A DNA stretch of 64,000 bases from the NCBI GenBank assembly GCA_963920705.1, contig OY987226.1, forward strand, positions 15,626,501 to 15,690,500, written 5' to 3'. Shown in pieces: positions 411 to 51,127 of the stretch. The notes beneath the pieces are model-generated. The model was given only the letters and a program-made list of their open reading frames with translations. It searched no databases and had not been told where the DNA came from. Every line of letters begins with the position of its first letter. The first letter of the stretch is position 1. This stretch comes from Odiellus spinosus. Its lineage: Eukaryota; Arthropoda; Arachnida; Opiliones; Phalangiidae. The position numbers and the translations under genes were made by a program.

Positions 411-1129
411 TTAAAGTGATACTATCACCATTTTTTCGTAGGTTTATCAATTATATTTTACTTTACCTATCATACTATTATATCTACTTATATTCAAAAT
501 ATTACACCTTTGTTTAAAATAAACAAATGGAAAATTATTATTTTTTCGTTTGATGACGAAGAATGTGGGAAAAACCTAATTTACAAAAATTGGTTCAAAT
601 TAAGAGAGGAACTTTCTGGATTAAGTAATGATGTACTTTCGCGAATGAGATAGCGAAAGCAACAGCTATATCACTCGCCAAAATGTTGGTAACATAGGCT
701 CTAAAATAGATAATCGATCTATTAGTGATGACGTAGAATGTAGGAGATTTTTGGTTTCCAAAATGTTCAAAGATACCGATATATTTTTTCAGTTGAAGTG
801 ATTTTTAGTGTAGTATATGAAATAATATTAATTTACAATGTGTGTATGTCCGTAACGTTTTCCAGAATGTTCTAGAAGGTTCAAGAAGAGTCTGGAGAGG
901 TCTAGAAAATTCGGGAAAGTTCTAGAAAGGTCTGGAAAGTTCTGGAAAATTCTGGAAAATTTCTATTTATGAATTTTCAACTTCAAAATCTTGAATTTTA
1001 TATGTCCCTTGATTTTTCACGGGTTTTGCTAATTTAAATTTAATTTTAATCGTATTTTAACGTTATTTCCGTAAATACTTCTCATATTTCAAATGGCTTT
1101 CATAAAAAACAGTAACAGTATCACTTTAA
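411..1129 (+). mobile_element. Family A element copy A1, TTAA-flanked, carries heat-shock-like array
   Basis: The left terminus reads TTAAAGTGATACTATCACC and the right terminus is its imperfect inverse, ending CACTTTAA. The TTAA at 411-414 and 1126-1129 is consistent with a TTAA target duplication as in piggyBac- or Kolobok-like elements; the superfamily is an inference. No transposase frame is present, so it is non-autonomous. Around 600-745 it holds the family's inverted core (ACGTCATCACTAA, then TCGCGAAAGTAC). At 860-957 it carries a 10-bp periodic TTCnnGAA array described separately. Confidence 0.75.
860..957 (+). promoter_or_regulatory. Tandem heat-shock-element-like array (TTCnnGAAnn)10
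   Basis: Half-sites fall in exact 10-bp register. GAA occurs at 865, 875, 885, 905, 915, 925, 935, 945 and 955, with GAG at 895. TTC occurs at 860, 870, 880, 910, 920, 940 and 950, with GTC at 890, 900 and 930. Alternating nGAAn/nTTCn pentamers are the known heat shock factor binding arrangement, and three are normally enough. The first six half-sites (860-887) are perfect. Whether HSF binds or drives transcription here is inference; no gene follows closely. Confidence 0.65.
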
Positions 1130-3853: not shown

Positions 3854-3926
3854 GCCCCCGTGGCCCAATGGATAAGGCGTCGGTCTCCTAAACCGAAGAT
3901 TGCGAGTTCGAGTCTCGCCGGGGGTA
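3854..3926 (+). tRNA. tRNA-Arg(CCT)
   Basis: Intronless 73-nt cloverleaf. The acceptor stem GCCCCCG pairs with CGGGGGT (one G-T pair) and the discriminator is A. The D arm is typical of animal tRNA-Arg (GGCCCAATGGATAAGGC), and the TCGGT/ACCGA anticodon stem presents CCT at 3887-3889. The T arm is GCGAG-TTCGAGT-CTCGC. D-arm and T-arm sequences also serve as the A and B boxes for Pol III. It decodes AGG. 3' CCA is not encoded, as expected in eukaryotes. Confidence 0.97.
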
Positions 3927-9374: not shown

Positions 9375-9605
9375 TTTACCATGTTTGACTATTTTCTCAA
9401 ATTATCTTTGACCATTTTTCCTACCAATCTTTGCCCCGTTTCTCTGACCATTTTTCCAACAATTTGCCCTGAATATATTTGCTAATTTTCCCTGACCATC
9501 TTTACCCAATTTCCCTGACTATCTTTGCCAATTTTCATGACAATCTTTGCCAATTTCCCTGATTATCTTTTCACATTTTCCTTGACCATCTTTGACCATT
9601 TTTGT
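9375..9605 (+). repeat. Degenerate CCCTGACCATCTTTGCCAAT repeat (family C interior)
   Basis: About ten diverged units of 20-25 bp with the core CTGACCATCTTTG(A/C)C. The motif resembles the interior of C1 and C2. Terminal CAGGGTT was not found here, so this is probably a relic. The overlapping small frame at 9525-9803 translates the repeat. Confidence 0.55.
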
Positions 9606-9770: not shown

Positions 9771-10582
9771 AGGGTTGCCAAAGTAACAATTAGGTTTAAT
9801 TAAAAAGGTAACTTAACTATACAAATAAAGTTTCAACATTTAAAATAAGGTATACCTTTATCTTAACTTAATCTTAAGGCGCCTTAACTATATAATAAAA
9901 ACCGCAAAGCGGGGTGGTACAATGTACCGATACTTAAATGTTTTCCAGCGTGAGTCCAACGGCAGCACGAGGGTTTATCTCCCAACCGGAAACCAGGGAC
10001 GGCATATAGATGATTTATTCCTGGCACCCACACACACGATTTTAACAGAAGGTAATTACGGTACGCGGTAACGCGAATTTGCGCGCGATGGTGCACTCGG
10101 CGTGGCGTAGATTTTCGGACATCGGTTCAGCTCGGTCGCCCGTGGGTGATCGATTTCGGCAAGGCCGGAGGATCTGGTAATCAGCGGGCTGGTTCGGACA
10201 TCCTGCTCATCTCTTCGCAAAATCAGCGATCTTGGGCGGCTAGCCTATCGGTTTTTCCTCGGCGTGCGTTACTTTTCAGCTTACCGATTCCCGATTTTAT
10301 TATTAACGCGGAGTCGCGAGTATGGTTTTTAACCGCGTGGTCAACGAGGACAACTCTAGCTATATTTTTAACCTTCCATGGTCATGGCCGAAACGAGAAT
10401 CATCTCTCGAGTTTTTCTGGTCCTACCGTCCTTCTTCAATCAACACCCTCGACCTTCGCGGATAGTATTTCTCAATTCGCACCTGGTCGCGACCCTCTTG
10501 GGGTTTTTCATTTTTCACACTTTATAACGTTAATGTACAAATATATAAAAAAAATACATACAATGGGTTTGGCAACCCTAGT
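9771..10582. mobile_element. Possible 0.8-kb element bounded by TAGGGTTGCCAAA inverted repeats
   Basis: TAGGGTTGCCAAA at 9771-9783 is exactly inverted near 10570-10582. The end resembles C2's CAGGGTTGCCACA. Outside the ends lie diverged direct repeats (a GGGATTGAATGTTAATG block at 9732 and 10588). The interior 9900-10520 is markedly GC- and CpG-richer than its surroundings. A 154-codon plus-strand frame (10146-10610) spans much of it but shows no domain, and I do not call it a gene. Confidence 0.4.
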
Positions 10583-14190: not shown

Positions 14191-15204
14191 GGTAAAGGGT
14201 GAAACATAGAGTATTGTCATAGTGTGTTATTTTCCCATAGCCACCAATACAGTCAAAGACACGGTGTCGATAGTACTCTATATAAATAATGAAACTATGT
14301 TGTTCTTGTTACAGGGTCAGTTGACATTGAGGTATAATCGTAACACGCGATAATTTTAAACTGGAACTTCTGAGAGAAAGAGTCAGGCGTTATAGACTCG
14401 TAAAACAATCCGGAAGTTTTCTTAAACTCGCTATAGTTAAAATCAGTCTGAGAATACAATGGAAGCGAAGTTTATAGTCCAATTTAATCTACTCGTAAAC
14501 TTAGTAACTAAAAACAAGGATCCTAATGTTGTTAACACTGACGTTTCCGAGTGATTATGTGCGAGAAAATACTATAATAGGAATCAGTCTAAGATTTCAA
14601 TGAATATAAAACTAGGCTCCCATTATTTCTTTTAGCTCTCTTTTAGTAAACATCGCAACTTGTACGAGATACGAGGGAGGTTCAAGTTCATACGTAATGC
14701 AAATGGACAGTGAGACATATTCCGACGGGGGCTATCAAGGGCACCTGGCTCTTCGACCGACATTTCCCAGCCCGAGCCGATTCTTTTATCCTAAGACTAA
14801 TAAGAAAGAAGAATCAAATTCCACCCATCTCCTCATTAAGGAAACTCGGGGAAACTAGATATTACGGTAGCGCCCTCTGGTTTAAGATTCATTAAACAAA
14901 AACTTTAGTTGTATGGTTGTCAACCCACAGCGCCCATCATTTGAAAATTAATGTTATACGATTTCAATGTTATTTCGAAGATAATGACAAAATTGTAACA
15001 TTATTTTATGAACGCTCTCCTATTAAGAAACTACTAGTAACTTGCCTTAGAGTGACATTTAATTTAATAGTATATACCTTTATCTTTGTTATATTGACCA
15101 TATCTTTCGCCACTTATGTTAATAAACTGAATAACGTATCAGTGATTAACTAAATAATACCAAGAATCTATAAATAAATAAATATAGAAGAAGTATTGGC
15201 GTAC
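14191..15204. other. No gene seen
   Basis: Two frames (14710-14895 and 14917-15153) have no recognisable domain. The second is hydrophobic near its end, but that follows from AT-rich composition. A short diverged direct repeat (AATCAGTCTGAGAATACAAT-like) occurs at about 14441 and 14582. Confidence 0.4.
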
Positions 15205-15410
15205 TAGCAAAAATCCTTGAAAAATCATGGGAGTTTTCTGGAATTTAATCCGAATTTTCCAGATTTCATTTTCAGAACTTTCCATAATTCGTTTTCCAGA
15301 ACTTTCAAGCACTTTTCTAGAATTTTCTAGACCTCTCCAGACTTTTCTGGAACATTCTAGGACATTCTGGGGAAAGTTACGGACATTGCAAATTAATAGT
15401 GTTTGATTTA
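15205..15410 (-). repeat. Second copy of the heat-shock-like module, inverted and degraded
   Basis: On the minus strand this aligns with about 805-1035 in A1, through both flanks (AATGTCCGTAACTTT on one side, TAGCAAAAATCCTTGAAAAA on the other). The periodic array persists at 15304-15372: TTC at 15315, 15325, 15345, 15355 and 15365, with GAA at 15320 and 15350 and one-base variants between. Because the homology stops short of the A termini, the module seems to move separately from family A. Confidence 0.6.
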
Positions 15411-19964: not shown

Positions 19965-20533
19965 CACGTAGTTGAAGCTACGATAAATCCATTTTATAAA
20001 GATTATGCGTGAACACGTGCGCTTAAAATGATTCCTGGCGATTTGAATATCGGTTTGATTTTATCGTTTAAAATCGATTATGAAATGCTAGTGCAGGGTT
20101 CGTACAAAATTTTGGAAGTTAATTTCCCTGACTTTTCCAGGTTTTTCCTGACCATTTCTAAATAATTTCCCTGACCAATTTTAATACTTTTTTCATGAAT
20201 ATATTCTTACGAGCGAGCTGCTGGCAATTCCCACATTTTATTTGAAATCGGGGTCAGGATAGTTTACTCAGAATATGAGAAACAATTTGAATCTTTAGGC
20301 ATATATTTTCAGTTTATAATAATTACGTTACAACTGATTGGTAAACCAATCATAAACAGTTCCTCGACACATAAGAAAATATTTATTTTCTCTGACCATT
20401 TGGGCTATTTTCAAATTCTCTGACTTTTCCCTGACCTTTGGGGCCCCTTTCCAAATTCCCTGACTTTTTGGGCCAATTTCCAAATTCCCTGACTTTCCAG
20501 GTCGTGTACGAACCCTGTAGTGTGACCATAGCT
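19965..20533 (-). mobile_element. Family H copy H2, inverted, split by C1
   Basis: On the minus strand it reads AGCTATGGTCAC-ACTAGCATTTC across the insertion point, then ATCAAACCGATATTCAAATC, GCCAGGAATCATTTTAAG and CACGTGTTCACGC, in the same order as H1 and H3. C1 separates the first ~16 bp from the rest. The far end (near 19965) is diverged. Confidence 0.65.
20094..20517. mobile_element. Family C element C1, complete, TAGTG duplication
   Basis: 424 bp with 13-bp exact inverted ends, CAGGGTTCGTACA. TAGTG flanks both sides (20089-20093 and 20518-20522). The interior near each end is built from CAAATTCCCTGAC and TTTTCCAGG(T) words. Inserted in H2, whose relative H1 reads AGCTACGGTCGCATTAGC without interruption. 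No transposase. A 99-codon frame starting at 20438 is repeat translation running into flank. Confidence 0.85.
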
Positions 20534-31316: not shown

Positions 31317-31513
31317 CACCGGAAACGCTTCTATATAGGTTATAACTATCACCACCACGCGCACGCTACTCAGTTGAATAACGCGGGTTAAAAGCAAGCG
31401 CGCTTAAAAGAAAGAGAAGCGAATTGAAGGAGGGCTGTGAGCCAGGCTGGGGGATTTAAAAGGGACTCCTTATCTCGCGAGAGGTGGCAGAAGACAACCG
31501 ACTACTTTCTCAA

Positions 31514-33181
31514 ATGCCGCAGTCTGAACAAGAATCGCGTCAAGGAGAGGAGAGGACGGGAGACGTCGTCGTGTTAGATAATCTAGAGGGTTCAATGCCG
31601 TTGGAACCTCGCGCCGGAAAACTACTAGAATTCGAGTTAGAAGAAGAAATTGAAAATCAAGATCTGCTGGAGGCTAATAACGAAGAAGATTACATGATGT
31701 GGGGTGAGCGAGCTAGACCGGACCCTAATACCACTAACCGTCTCGCTACCCGAACGGACGGTGAAAGACTTTTACCACCGTGGTCTCTCAGAGATTCTTG
31801 TTTATGGAAGGTACGAAATGACATTTTAAATTGGAGTCGCGAAGGGAGTCTGCGCAAAAGTAGAAATTCTTACGCGCATTATCAACCGTTCGCGAACTAC
31901 CCCATCCAATTACGACAAGAGATTCTCGACTCAATGTTACGTCTAAAACCGGACGGTCGCGAAGTGGTCGGCGCCGTGAAGTTGTTAATTCAATCGGGCA
32001 TTTTCAGTTTTGACTTAAATTGTTTAAACGAATGCGAATCTTACGACGTTTTTCGCGTCATTAACTCTCTAGTGCGTCACGGTAACTTGTTACTAGAATT
32101 GAACGTCGGCGGGCAATGGTTGTACGATCCACGAGCTAATTACTTGGTCTGTAAGTTACTTCGTAACGCCCCTAATCTTAAAAAACTCGTCTTACAAGAA
32201 GCCACCGAAGAAGGCAGAGAATTGGAAACAATCCTGGCCTCTTGTTTCAACTTGAGACATTTGGAAATACGACATCCTTCCGTCGATGACAAGTACTTGG
32301 AAATTTTATTACGGGGAGGAAGAGAACCCAAATCTACAAAGTTGACCTCGGTCATAGTTCCTTCGACGGTCAAAGCCGAAGGGTTACTAACGTTACTCAA
32401 AGTTTTTCCTAATCTTCAGTACATGGAATGCAGTCATTTGGAGGAGACTTTAGACGCGTTAGAAGCCAAAGACGATGACAAAGATTGGTGGAAAGAAAGA
32501 GGGGCCGGAATACTCGGAGTCAAAACGACTCAACCCATGGGACCCAAAGGAGTGTCAAAATTAGTTCATTGGTTTCCTAATTTGAAGACGGTAGCGTTGG
32601 AAGTTCAAGAGTACATGAATTTATCATCTTTATCCGATTTACGGAACTTGAAGTCCTTGGAATTACGCAACAGCGCCACTTTACCGGCATCTTACATTCA
32701 ATGCGTGTTACCGTTATTAAACGAAGCCGGTCGTAAATTAACTCATTTAGGATTAGAACATTTCGACGTGGTAGATTTATCCAAAACGTCTCTGTCGTGT
32801 CCCGAACTTAATTCTTTAACTTTACGTTGGTTTACTTTGTTGGGAACTTCGTCCGTAAAGGTTAAAGGTCACGTGCCTTTCGAAAAACTTCAATCGATCT
32901 GTTTAAGGCCTCGCACTAATCGTCACATTAACAAAGAAGCGTGCGAACTTCTGCTAAGTAATTGTACGGGTATGAGACACGTCGAGTTGTACTGTTGTCA
33001 CGGTTTGGACGATAACACGGTCGAGAAATTGGTTAAAACTAATCCCTTGGCATCACTAAGAACGCTAATTCTGCGACACGGACACGGATTATCCTCCAAA
33101 GGAATTCAAACCCTAATTTGTAGATCCAAACATTTGTTATATTGGGATTTCGGTGAAGTTAGTTCGCCCAAATCAAATTGA
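31514..33181 (+). CDS. Leucine-rich-repeat protein, FBXL/ZYG11-like repeats, intronless
   Basis: Encodes 555 residues from the first in-frame ATG; the frame is open from 31460 (TAA at 31457-31459). Residues 1-80 are acidic and probably disordered. Residues 80-180 form a tryptophan-containing helical region (LPPWSLRDSCLWKVRNDIL, YPIQLRQEILDSML). From about 190 to 535 I count around twelve irregular leucine-rich repeats (NAPNLKKLVLQ, CFNLRHLEIRH, FPNLKTVALEV, LRNLKSLELRN, CPELNSLTLRW, CTGMRHVELYC, LASLRTLILRH). The pattern recalls substrate-recognition LRRs of FBXL and ZYG11/ZER1 ubiquitin ligase adaptors, but I see no certain F-box or VHL box, so a ligase role is inference. No signal peptide or membrane segment. 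The ATG context (CAA before ATG) is weak; a 5' exon joined at a possible acceptor near 31490 cannot be excluded. No AATAAA lies close downstream; ATTAAA occurs at 33371. Confidence 0.85.
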   Translation: MPQSEQESRQGEERTGDVVVLDNLEGSMPLEPRAGKLLEFELEEEIENQDLLEANNEEDYMMWGERARPDPNTTNRLATRTDGERLLPPWSLRDSCLWKVRNDILNWSREGSLRKSRNSYAHYQPFANYPIQLRQEILDSMLRLKPDGREVVGAVKLLIQSGIFSFDLNCLNECESYDVFRVINSLVRHGNLLLELNVGGQWLYDPRANYLVCKLLRNAPNLKKLVLQEATEEGRELETILASCFNLRHLEIRHPSVDDKYLEILLRGGREPKSTKLTSVIVPSTVKAEGLLTLLKVFPNLQYMECSHLEETLDALEAKDDDKDWWKERGAGILGVKTTQPMGPKGVSKLVHWFPNLKTVALEVQEYMNLSSLSDLRNLKSLELRNSATLPASYIQCVLPLLNEAGRKLTHLGLEHFDVVDLSKTSLSCPELNSLTLRWFTLLGTSSVKVKGHVPFEKLQSICLRPRTNRHINKEACELLLSNCTGMRHVELYCCHGLDDNTVEKLVKTNPLASLRTLILRHGHGLSSKGIQTLICRSKHLLYWDFGEVSSPKSN

Positions 33182-37010: not shown

Positions 37011-37724
37011 TTAAAGTGATGCTGTCACTATTTTTTCGAAGGCCTATGAATTATGTAATTTTTTTATACTATAAAAACTGACTAGAGAGACAGCAAAGAG
37101 CCAAGGGGGGAAGAAAGCCTGACGTCATGGAACCCCCTTACTGTGGGAGCGCTTGTAAGGACGAATACTGGAACTACCTCACTAAGGGGGATGACACCGA
37201 GGTTAGAGATAGAAACCTCTGACGTATCAATGTCTCCCTTGCTGACTCCCTTTAGAGCTAGGTTGAAACGTTCAAAAGAAACTTCAAAATTAAAATGACA
37301 AAGTATATAGATTGATTTTTTTCTCTGATTGAAAACGTAGTATTAACGAGAAGTTTCGAATGGAAGGTGAGATTTTCTGTCCAATTAAGTACTTTCACTT
37401 AACCAGAATACGCAGGACAATAGACTGTGGGTTCTATAATAGCCACGTGACCATAGTTATGACCAAGTTGTATTGAGAGGAATTTTTATTTTAAAAATTT
37501 CGAAGATGCTAATTTTAAAATATATATTTTTACCAATACAGTAACTACATATTGATTATTTTATTAATGAACTTTCCAAAAATGCTACTCATATTTCATT
37601 TGGTTCACGAGAAATTGGTTAACCACCATGTTCTTAAAAACTGCTAATTACGTACTGTAGTACAGTCAAAACTACCAATTACGTAAGAGTGGTAAGACCC
37701 TCGTCGGTGACACAGTCGCTTTAA
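37011..37724. mobile_element. Family A copy A4, TTAA-flanked, contains module G2
   Basis: TTAAAGTGATGCTGTCACT at the left and an inverted GTGACACAGTCGCTTTAA at the right, with TTAA at 37011-37014 and 37721-37724. The inverted core is at about 37380-37470 (AAGTACTTTCACTTAACCAG, GCCACGTGACCATAG). Module G2 occupies 37091-37244. Confidence 0.75.
37091..37244 (+). mobile_element. Module G2 inside A4
   Basis: Homologous to G1 (1795-1933, opposite strand), including CCTCACTAAGGGGGATGACA and flanking identity, with a TGACGTCA at 37120-37127. Its presence in two different hosts (F1 and A4) indicates mobility, but no target duplication is visible. Confidence 0.5.
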
Positions 37725-41259: not shown

Positions 41260-41844
41260 TTAAAGGGATAGTAACACGATTTGTTAAACAAATTTAATTT
41301 TGAGAGTTTGATATATCGTCGTATAACAGTCTCCGACCAATGAGCAAAAACCCAAGCCTAATAAAGTGAGTTCACAGAATTTTCATGAACTACACATGGG
41401 ATTTGAGTAGCATTTTCAGAAAGATATTAGAAACTATTCAAAATATATATACTTATATCATAGCAAAATATTTACAGCCATAATTTTTTTTATAATGGCC
41501 ATCAAAAATTCACCGAAATACTACGTCATCACTTGGTCGTCTGGCTATTGTAACTCTAGCCAATAATAATAATTCTCGTGCATTCTGCCACATGTTACGG
41601 ATGCTTTCACGCGTCCTTTTTCGTGAATGAATTTATTCTAGAAAGTCTTACCTCTTTAATACGAAACTTTTCGTTAATTACGTAACAGAATCAAACTACG
41701 TCATCAATCGGAAAAAAAAGTATATATATTTATCTTATTATTTTTGAAGTTTCTTAATAATTGGAATATGGATTTTTAATATCATGAAAAGACTAAATAG
41801 AATCCAAAGGCCTGCGAAAAAAAATGGTGAAAACTTCACTTTAA
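41260..41844 (+). mobile_element. Family A copy A5
   Basis: TTAA at 41260-41263 and 41841-41844. Left end TTAAAGGGATAGTAACACG (diverged), right end GGTGAAAACTTCACTTTAA. The interior has TTTGAGTAGCATTTTCAGAA, the core ACGTCATCACTTGGTCG (the intact counterpart of the B1 target in A7), and GTGCATTCTGCCAC. Confidence 0.65.
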
Positions 41845-50774: not shown

Positions 50775-51127
50775 CAGGGTTGCCACATTTTTATCAGATT
50801 CAAATTCCCTGACTTTTCCAGGTTTTTCCCTGACCTTTTCCAACGATTTTCCCTGAACGTTTGAGCTAACACTACCCAATTTTTAACCTTTTATCTTTTA
50901 TATTACTTAAAAATATATATTTTAAATAACATGGTAATCATTTAGGTTGTTTTAAGCCTTTGCTTCAAATCAAGATAATGATTGTAATATCCTGGCTTCT
51001 TGACAGATCTTTAAATTCCCTGACCTTTTTGGTTCATTTTCAAATTCCCTGACTTTTCCCTGACCTTTTTGGCTCATTTTCAAATTCCCTGACTTTTCCC
51101 TGTTTTCCCTGACCTGTGGCAACCCTG
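50775..51127. mobile_element. Family C element C2, complete, GTATT duplication
   Basis: 353 bp with 13-bp inverted ends CAGGGTTGCCACA, flanked by GTATT at 50770-50774 and 51128-51132. Subterminal words CAAATTCCCTGACTTTTCC, AGGTTTTTCCCTGACC and GACCTTTTTGGxTCATTTT recur in direct orientation. Same architecture and duplication length as C1, with different terminal bases after CAGGGTT. Confidence 0.85.

Follow-up and report, generated by a model that had tools for sequence, protein, structure and literature searches.

A short non-autonomous Helitron family carrying heat-shock-element-like arrays in a genome of apparent arthropod origin

What carries a ten-turn array resembling heat-shock elements (HSEs) near the start of the window, as we call the whole 64,000-nucleotide stretch of DNA analysed here, and was the array ever a binding platform for heat-shock factor (HSF)? 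The array lies at positions 860–957 (no strand assigned) and consists of ten 10-bp units of the form TTCnnGAAnn, reading in order TTCCAGAATG TTCTAGAAGG TTCAAGAAGA GTCTGGAGAG GTCTAGAAAA TTCGGGAAAG TTCTAGAAAG GTCTGGAAAG TTCTGGAAAA TTCTGGAAAA. Our recount gave the same figures as the initial annotation, with exact TTC in seven and exact GAA in nine of the ten units, and the perfect alternating run of six half-sites from the array start was also recovered. Tandem Repeats Finder places a 10-bp unit in 9.9 copies at 860–958, with the consensus TTCTAGAAAG. When a four-half-site pattern (≤2 mismatches) was counted over the window, 24 matches were obtained, whereas 100 shuffles gave 6.56 on average and never more than 14; eight of the matches fall in the array and five in a second array at about 15.3 kb, which leaves 11 elsewhere, a number that shuffles also reach. 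With at least three alternating TTC/GAA half-sites at 5-bp spacing, six in this case, the letters of the array conform to the HSE architecture that had been ascribed to it, and, in line with the claim that it is far longer than a usual promoter element, it exceeds the HSEs of the host Hsp70 genes examined below.

The array had further been placed inside a TTAA-flanked transposon, and such an element is indeed present: an outer MITE spans 411–1129 (no strand assigned), with TTAA at 411–414 and 1126–1129 and the element proper at 415–1125. Its terminal repeats read AGTGATACT / AGTATCACT and its inverted arms (410–436 and 1104–1130) match at 85%. The MITE surrounds the array, but the array itself belongs to a Helitron nested within the MITE, because MITE relatives at three other loci (L047, L048 and L050; 68–73% identity) cross the insertion point without it. 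That the MITE owns the array, as first proposed, has the position of the array between TTAA-flanked inverted repeats in its favour; however, the array is found with ends of its own at many other genomic places, and together with the array-free relatives this leaves the proposal next to no likelihood. The TTAA-type (piggyBac-like) MITE was accordingly rejected as the carrier, on the three relatives lacking the array and on the empty site described below, in favour of a Helitron with an A|T target, 5' TC, a 3' hairpin followed by CTAG, and empty sites. A MITE-related terminus also occurs at window positions 37011–37054 (AGTGATACT termini), and stretches related to the MITE are found in L045, L047, L048, L050, L055 and L058.

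The ends of the carrier were derived from the 443 Mb of genome that was searched. Twenty loci were fetched from the list of HSE-pattern matches, and 13 of these, picked by eye, were written out in one orientation beside one further locus (L008) and the two window copies, which suggested the putative ends TCAAACACTATTAATTTACAATG (5') and CCCGTGATTTTTCACGGGTTTTTGCTAG (3'). Genome-wide, the 5' end (≤3 mismatches) was matched 431 times as against five for its reversed control, and the 3' end, searched as a 30-mer, 199 times as against none. We then characterised a set of 72 copies, comprising 70 chosen by the 5' end alone (≤1 mismatch) and the two window copies. The base preceding the 5' end is A in 65 of the 72. 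The 3' end is recognisable in 42 copies, 34 of which have T as the next base, and A before and T after occur together in 31 of these 42 copies with both ends. The 3' terminus reads CTAG in 21/42 and CTAA in 5/42, so that CTRR is present in at least 26/42, and the family form ends in a hairpin with a 7-bp stem and a 4-nt loop, 6 nt before CTAG (−7.9 kcal/mol, z −6.45). Copies with both ends recognised (42/72) have a median length of 218.5 bp and range from 143 to 858 bp.

To examine insertion, the two flanks of each of the 42 copies were joined, and the joined sequences were compared with the window and with the loci that had been fetched. Matches crossing the junction were obtained for seven copies. 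Clean empty sites were seen for L097 against L055 (84.8%), for L064 against window positions 41380–41469 (81.5%) and for window copy 1 against the related sequence L048:941–1035 (72.9% identity); a weaker one pairs L101 with L041 (71.0%), in the match of L045 the junction is interrupted by a gap of 3 bp, and nothing could be learned from L043, which matched itself, or from L052, where a repeat array is involved. No target duplication was seen in the junction-crossing empty-site matches. Helitrons are marked by a 5' TC, a 3' CTRR, a 3' hairpin and insertion between A and T without target duplication. All of these ends, the hairpin and the A/T insertion are found here, with no terminal inverted repeats, and the array carrier is a short non-autonomous Helitron family of hundreds of copies. 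Two peculiarities of individual loci may be recorded: on contig C4 three 5' ends on the same strand, at 11698987, 11699071 and 11699155, are spaced by exactly 84 bp, apparently as a tandem repeat that includes Helitron ends, and at L036 a 481-aa open frame of C2H2-like zinc-finger repeats adjoins a copy of the Helitron 5' end.

Helitron copy 1, the carrier of the array in the window, occupies 818–1032 on the plus strand (215 bp), with the target bases A817 and T1033, and is non-autonomous; it is defined by its 5' 23-mer, its CTAA end and its empty site. The 5' terminus (818–840, plus strand) reads TGAAATAATATTAATTTACAATG, three mismatches from the family form TCAAACACTATTAATTTACAATG whose genome-wide count is given above. 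A 3' terminal hairpin, CCCTTGA-TTTT-TCACGGG with one mismatch, lies at 1006–1023 (plus strand) and folds as DNA at −3.3 kcal/mol (z −2.65; 5/200 shuffles equally good), followed by the terminal CTRR, here CTAA, at 1029–1032 (plus strand), as read from the letters and the family ends. The termini of this copy thus read TG and CTAA, a single terminal base having decayed. Helitron copy 2, identified by self-comparison, alignment and the family ends, lies on the minus strand at 15204–15406 (203 bp) and has the form A / ... CTAG / T. Self-comparison and alignment show that the two copies have in common, besides the units, a left flank with TATTAATTTrCAATG and TCCGTAAC and the right flank TGATTTTTCAmGG. 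The array of copy 2 is more decayed than that of copy 1, its longest perfect run being three half-sites.

HSE-like half-sites are a property of the family at large. A five-half-site pattern, TTCnnGAAnnTTCnnGAAnnTTC, is matched 821 + 865 (=1686) times in the genome, as against 3 + 8 (=11) for the reversed pattern. Within 400 bp of the 5' end, 69 of the 72 copies have three or more perfect half-sites that alternate in steps of 5 bp, 47 have four or more and 14 have six or more; first-order shuffles reach three or more in 1.7% of cases. Of 24 loci selected through the HSE pattern, 13 have a family end at a distance of no more than 3 edits, as against 0/24 in reversed sequence, a line that was set afterwards and that gives no discrimination at 6 edits (22 vs 20).

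The array of the family consensus begins about 50 bp behind the 5' end, and nearly every copy examined has one, which would suit a subterminal repeat bound by the Rep-helicase or a host replication factor, with the likeness to HSEs being secondary. We regard this explanation as improbable, since array length and period differ widely between copies, and since no such array lies in the 3.5 kb upstream of five Rep genes that belong to other or unknown Helitron families. Tandem Repeats Finder detects an array in 65 of the 72 copies, the period being divisible by 10 in 52 cases and not so in 13; without three rows whose unit is not HSE-like (L036, L057 and L100) the figures become 51/62 and 11/62. 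That selection keeps individual insertions in the HSF register was on this account judged unlikely, arrays being off the 10-bp multiple in 11/62 HSE-like cases (13/65 overall). Expanded arrays have periods of 19, 21, 24, 31 or 42 bp and reach about 38 units. Among them, L055, L037 and L024 display a runaway expansion into 21-bp repeats off the 10-bp register, with about 38 copies in L055.

Such off-register expansions are also what would be expected if the array were a 10-bp minisatellite borne by the Helitron, in which a TTCTAGAAAG unit grew by slippage and unequal exchange, resembled HSEs by chance and never had a role with HSF. Internal tandem repeats are common in Helitrons. Yet, by our estimate, only about 0.3% of random 10-bp units would match TTCnnGAAnn in one phase or another, and further evidence bearing on this explanation, which we hold to be unlikely on balance, comes from the decay of the copies and from the host promoters.

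It had been suggested at the outset that half-sites be compared with spacers for conservation across copies, and the answer was divided. In the best-aligned columns, with the 23 columns used for copy selection excluded, divergence of the inserted copies from the consensus amounts to 333/2560 (13.0%) at half-sites and 279/1710 (16.3%) at spacers, but to 189/1572 (12.0%) in the non-HSE flank; over a longer, less surely aligned stretch the values are 15.9%, 21.5% and 12.0%, respectively. The half-site advantage is confined to A (5.9 vs 13.4%, p = 6e-7) and G (17.9 vs 23.6%, p = 0.018), whereas C and T decay without difference between half-sites and spacers. Half-site C and G decay faster than the same bases of the flank (21.5 vs 16.1% and 17.9 vs 12.3%), and most of the spacer excess comes from unit positions 10 and 5, at which some copies have A and others G. 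Because half-site loss is about equal to non-HSE flank loss, the inserted copies appear to decay much like neutral DNA, which speaks against the upkeep of individual insertions. With a divergence of about 12% from the consensus at the non-HSE flank, the family is, as judged by this measure, old.

A different picture is given by the consensus itself. Over its ten units, the half-sites deviate from TTC/GAA in 6/60 cells and the spacers from their commonest base in 13/40 cells (Fisher p = 0.008), counts made by hand on a single consensus, whose units are not independent of one another and whose resolution is poor in the last of them. Unit positions C3 and G6 are invariant among the 10 consensus units, and C and G are the fastest-decaying bases in the copies. 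This pattern is consistent with constraint having acted on the source elements and with neutral decay of the copies thereafter. The neutral-like loss of half-sites is also in line with a minisatellite of chance resemblance; the consensus half-sites, steadier than the spacers from unit to unit, argue against one.

The same decay bears on whether the copy in the window serves as a co-opted heat-shock enhancer of a nearby gene. Its run of six half-sites does rank it with the 14 of 72 copies that reach this number. However, the copy sits within a MITE, no open frame of at least 130 aa begins closer than the one at 10056, no recognised gene lies closer than a tRNA at 3854 (multi-exon genes lay outside the gene search), both ends of the copy are decayed, and across the family half-sites are lost in a neutral-like manner. 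Local co-option was therefore judged very improbable and set aside.

We also asked which HSEs the host itself uses. One match to the HSF DNA-binding domain was found among two candidates in the genome; as judged by eye, an apparent intron separates its exons reading SFIRQLNM and GFRK, a stretch that we take to be the usual recognition region of this domain. Five Hsp70-family genes have a nearly full-length uninterrupted match, intron-split Hsp70 genes being outside this sample, and roughly 900 bases covering the start of each were inspected. In four of the five promoters TTCTAGAGCTTTCTAGAA is located 16 bp upstream of TATAA. This block is one mismatch from four perfect half-sites and resembles two array units closely, and each of the four promoters has a second HSE cluster (≤2 mismatches) 47–49 bp further upstream. 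As four promoters carry TTCTAGAGCTTTCTAGAA, these host Hsp70 promoters use the half-sites of the Helitron together with its TA inner spacer, which weighs against a chance likeness of a minisatellite. The HSE–TATA block of these four promoters (L110, L111, L113 and L114) is almost identical between loci on two contigs. The fifth gene (L112) is without the TTCTAGAGCTTTCTAGAA block, its only similar match being separated from the apparent ATG downstream by over 500 bp, and its N-terminus looks like that of ER BiP. At position 88 of L112, far upstream of this BiP-like gene, TTCTAGAAAGTTCTAGAC is similar to a Helitron unit; no Helitron family end was found in the 901 bases of this locus.

An autonomous partner was sought among the Helitron_like_N matches of the genome, which number at least 150 (150 of 184 candidates were scored), many of them in long open frames. 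Of these 150 matches, 104 were compared with 100 listed 5' ends (of 431) and 43 listed 3' ends (of 199), and in no case was the distance 20 kb or less, the closest approach to any listed family end being 52 kb, and the 3.5 kb upstream of five Rep matches contain neither the family 5' end nor an HSE array. The autonomous partner may be extinct, diverged or beyond the lists compared. That no heat-responsive one was found among the Helitron_like_N matches compared is a further point on the side of the minisatellite. Several Helitron_like_N matches have identical scores and open frames of up to thousands of residues, which suggests that other, autonomous Helitron families may have been active recently.

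Taking these observations together, we favour, with a probability of roughly 0.6, the reading that HSF-bound elements were spread by a once heat-responsive Helitron lineage, of which the window copy would be a decaying relic. HSF trimers would bind the Helitron arrays on heat shock. In the source elements, an array close behind the 5' end would have acted as a heat-responsive promoter or enhancer, tying their transcription, and hence their mobilisation, to stress. Non-autonomous copies would have inherited the array and scattered putative HSF sites through the genome, where most inserted copies, the one in the window included, would decay with no selection acting on them in place and are probably either inert or passive HSF-binding DNA.

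Repeats with HSF sites are known in other settings. Human satellite III is a tandem repeat whose unit supplies HSF1 sites, which resembles the present case, but it is a pericentromeric satellite and not a dispersed mobile element. ONSEN/COPIA78 of Brassicaceae, a heat-responsive LTR retrotransposon, likewise has transposon-borne heat-responsive cis elements, although these are few and form no ten-unit array. The genome studied here has TTAGG repeats at three of the four contig ends checked (the right end of C1 and both ends of C2, with none at the left end of C1), and this telomere repeat points to an arthropod.

The closest parallel is offered by Caenorhabditis, since the mobile unit of the array is a Helitron. 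There, Helitron1_CE, Helitron2_CE, HelitronY1_CE, HelitronY1A_CE and HelitronY4_CE are described as Helitrons with dense, tandem, overlapping HSEs spread through the genome (PMC6927752), a likeness that we draw from the description of these elements. According to the excerpts of that study drawn upon here, the HSEs of C. elegans Helitrons bind HSF-1, the Rep-helicase mRNA of Helitron1_CE rises with heat, induction of Helitron-associated genes is greatly reduced in wild isolates, and heat-timed transposition has been suggested (PMC6927752). HSF binding is thus demonstrated for the worm Helitrons, whereas in our case it is putative, read from sequence; in addition, the present genome apparently belongs to another phylum, as its TTAGG telomeres indicate, and its copies are short, with no autonomous HSE-bearing copy found. 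Multimeric HSEs are reported to bind as many as five HSF-1 domains cooperatively (PMC9148306), and long arrays are therefore plausible strong HSF sites.

In the annotated genomes surveyed by Garrigues et al. (2019), enrichment of HSEs in Helitrons was restricted to Caenorhabditis, as far as the excerpts of that paper go (PMC6927752). The portions of the literature searched contained no HSE-bearing Helitrons of insects or other arthropods, and work on HSE-Helitrons only for Caenorhabditis. The pairing of an HSE array with a Helitron is thus apparently new outside this genus, and apparently in another phylum. What had been reported as a peculiarity of Caenorhabditis now has a counterpart in a second, distant animal genome. 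It could be, and we offer this as a rather unlikely speculation, that Helitrons gained dense arrays of HSF sites on two or more occasions, or have retained them from before the arthropod/nematode split, coupling transposition to heat stress, and that hundreds of arrays form an HSF-binding reservoir here which has rewired or buffers the heat-shock response. It can now be tested whether recruitment of heat-shock factor is a recurrent means by which Helitrons time their movement, and whether the set of heat-responsive genes is altered by scattered HSF arrays. In genomes of this kind, transposon copies can swamp HSE scans unless they are masked.

Two features elsewhere in the window may be added. 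A 573-aa open frame at 31460–33181 (plus strand) has a weak leucine-rich-repeat match below the Pfam cut-off, and no PDB relative was found for it at E 0.001. Minisatellites at 9403–9602, 20386–20496 and 50805–51102 have the motif TTCCCTGAC in common and apparently constitute one dispersed family.
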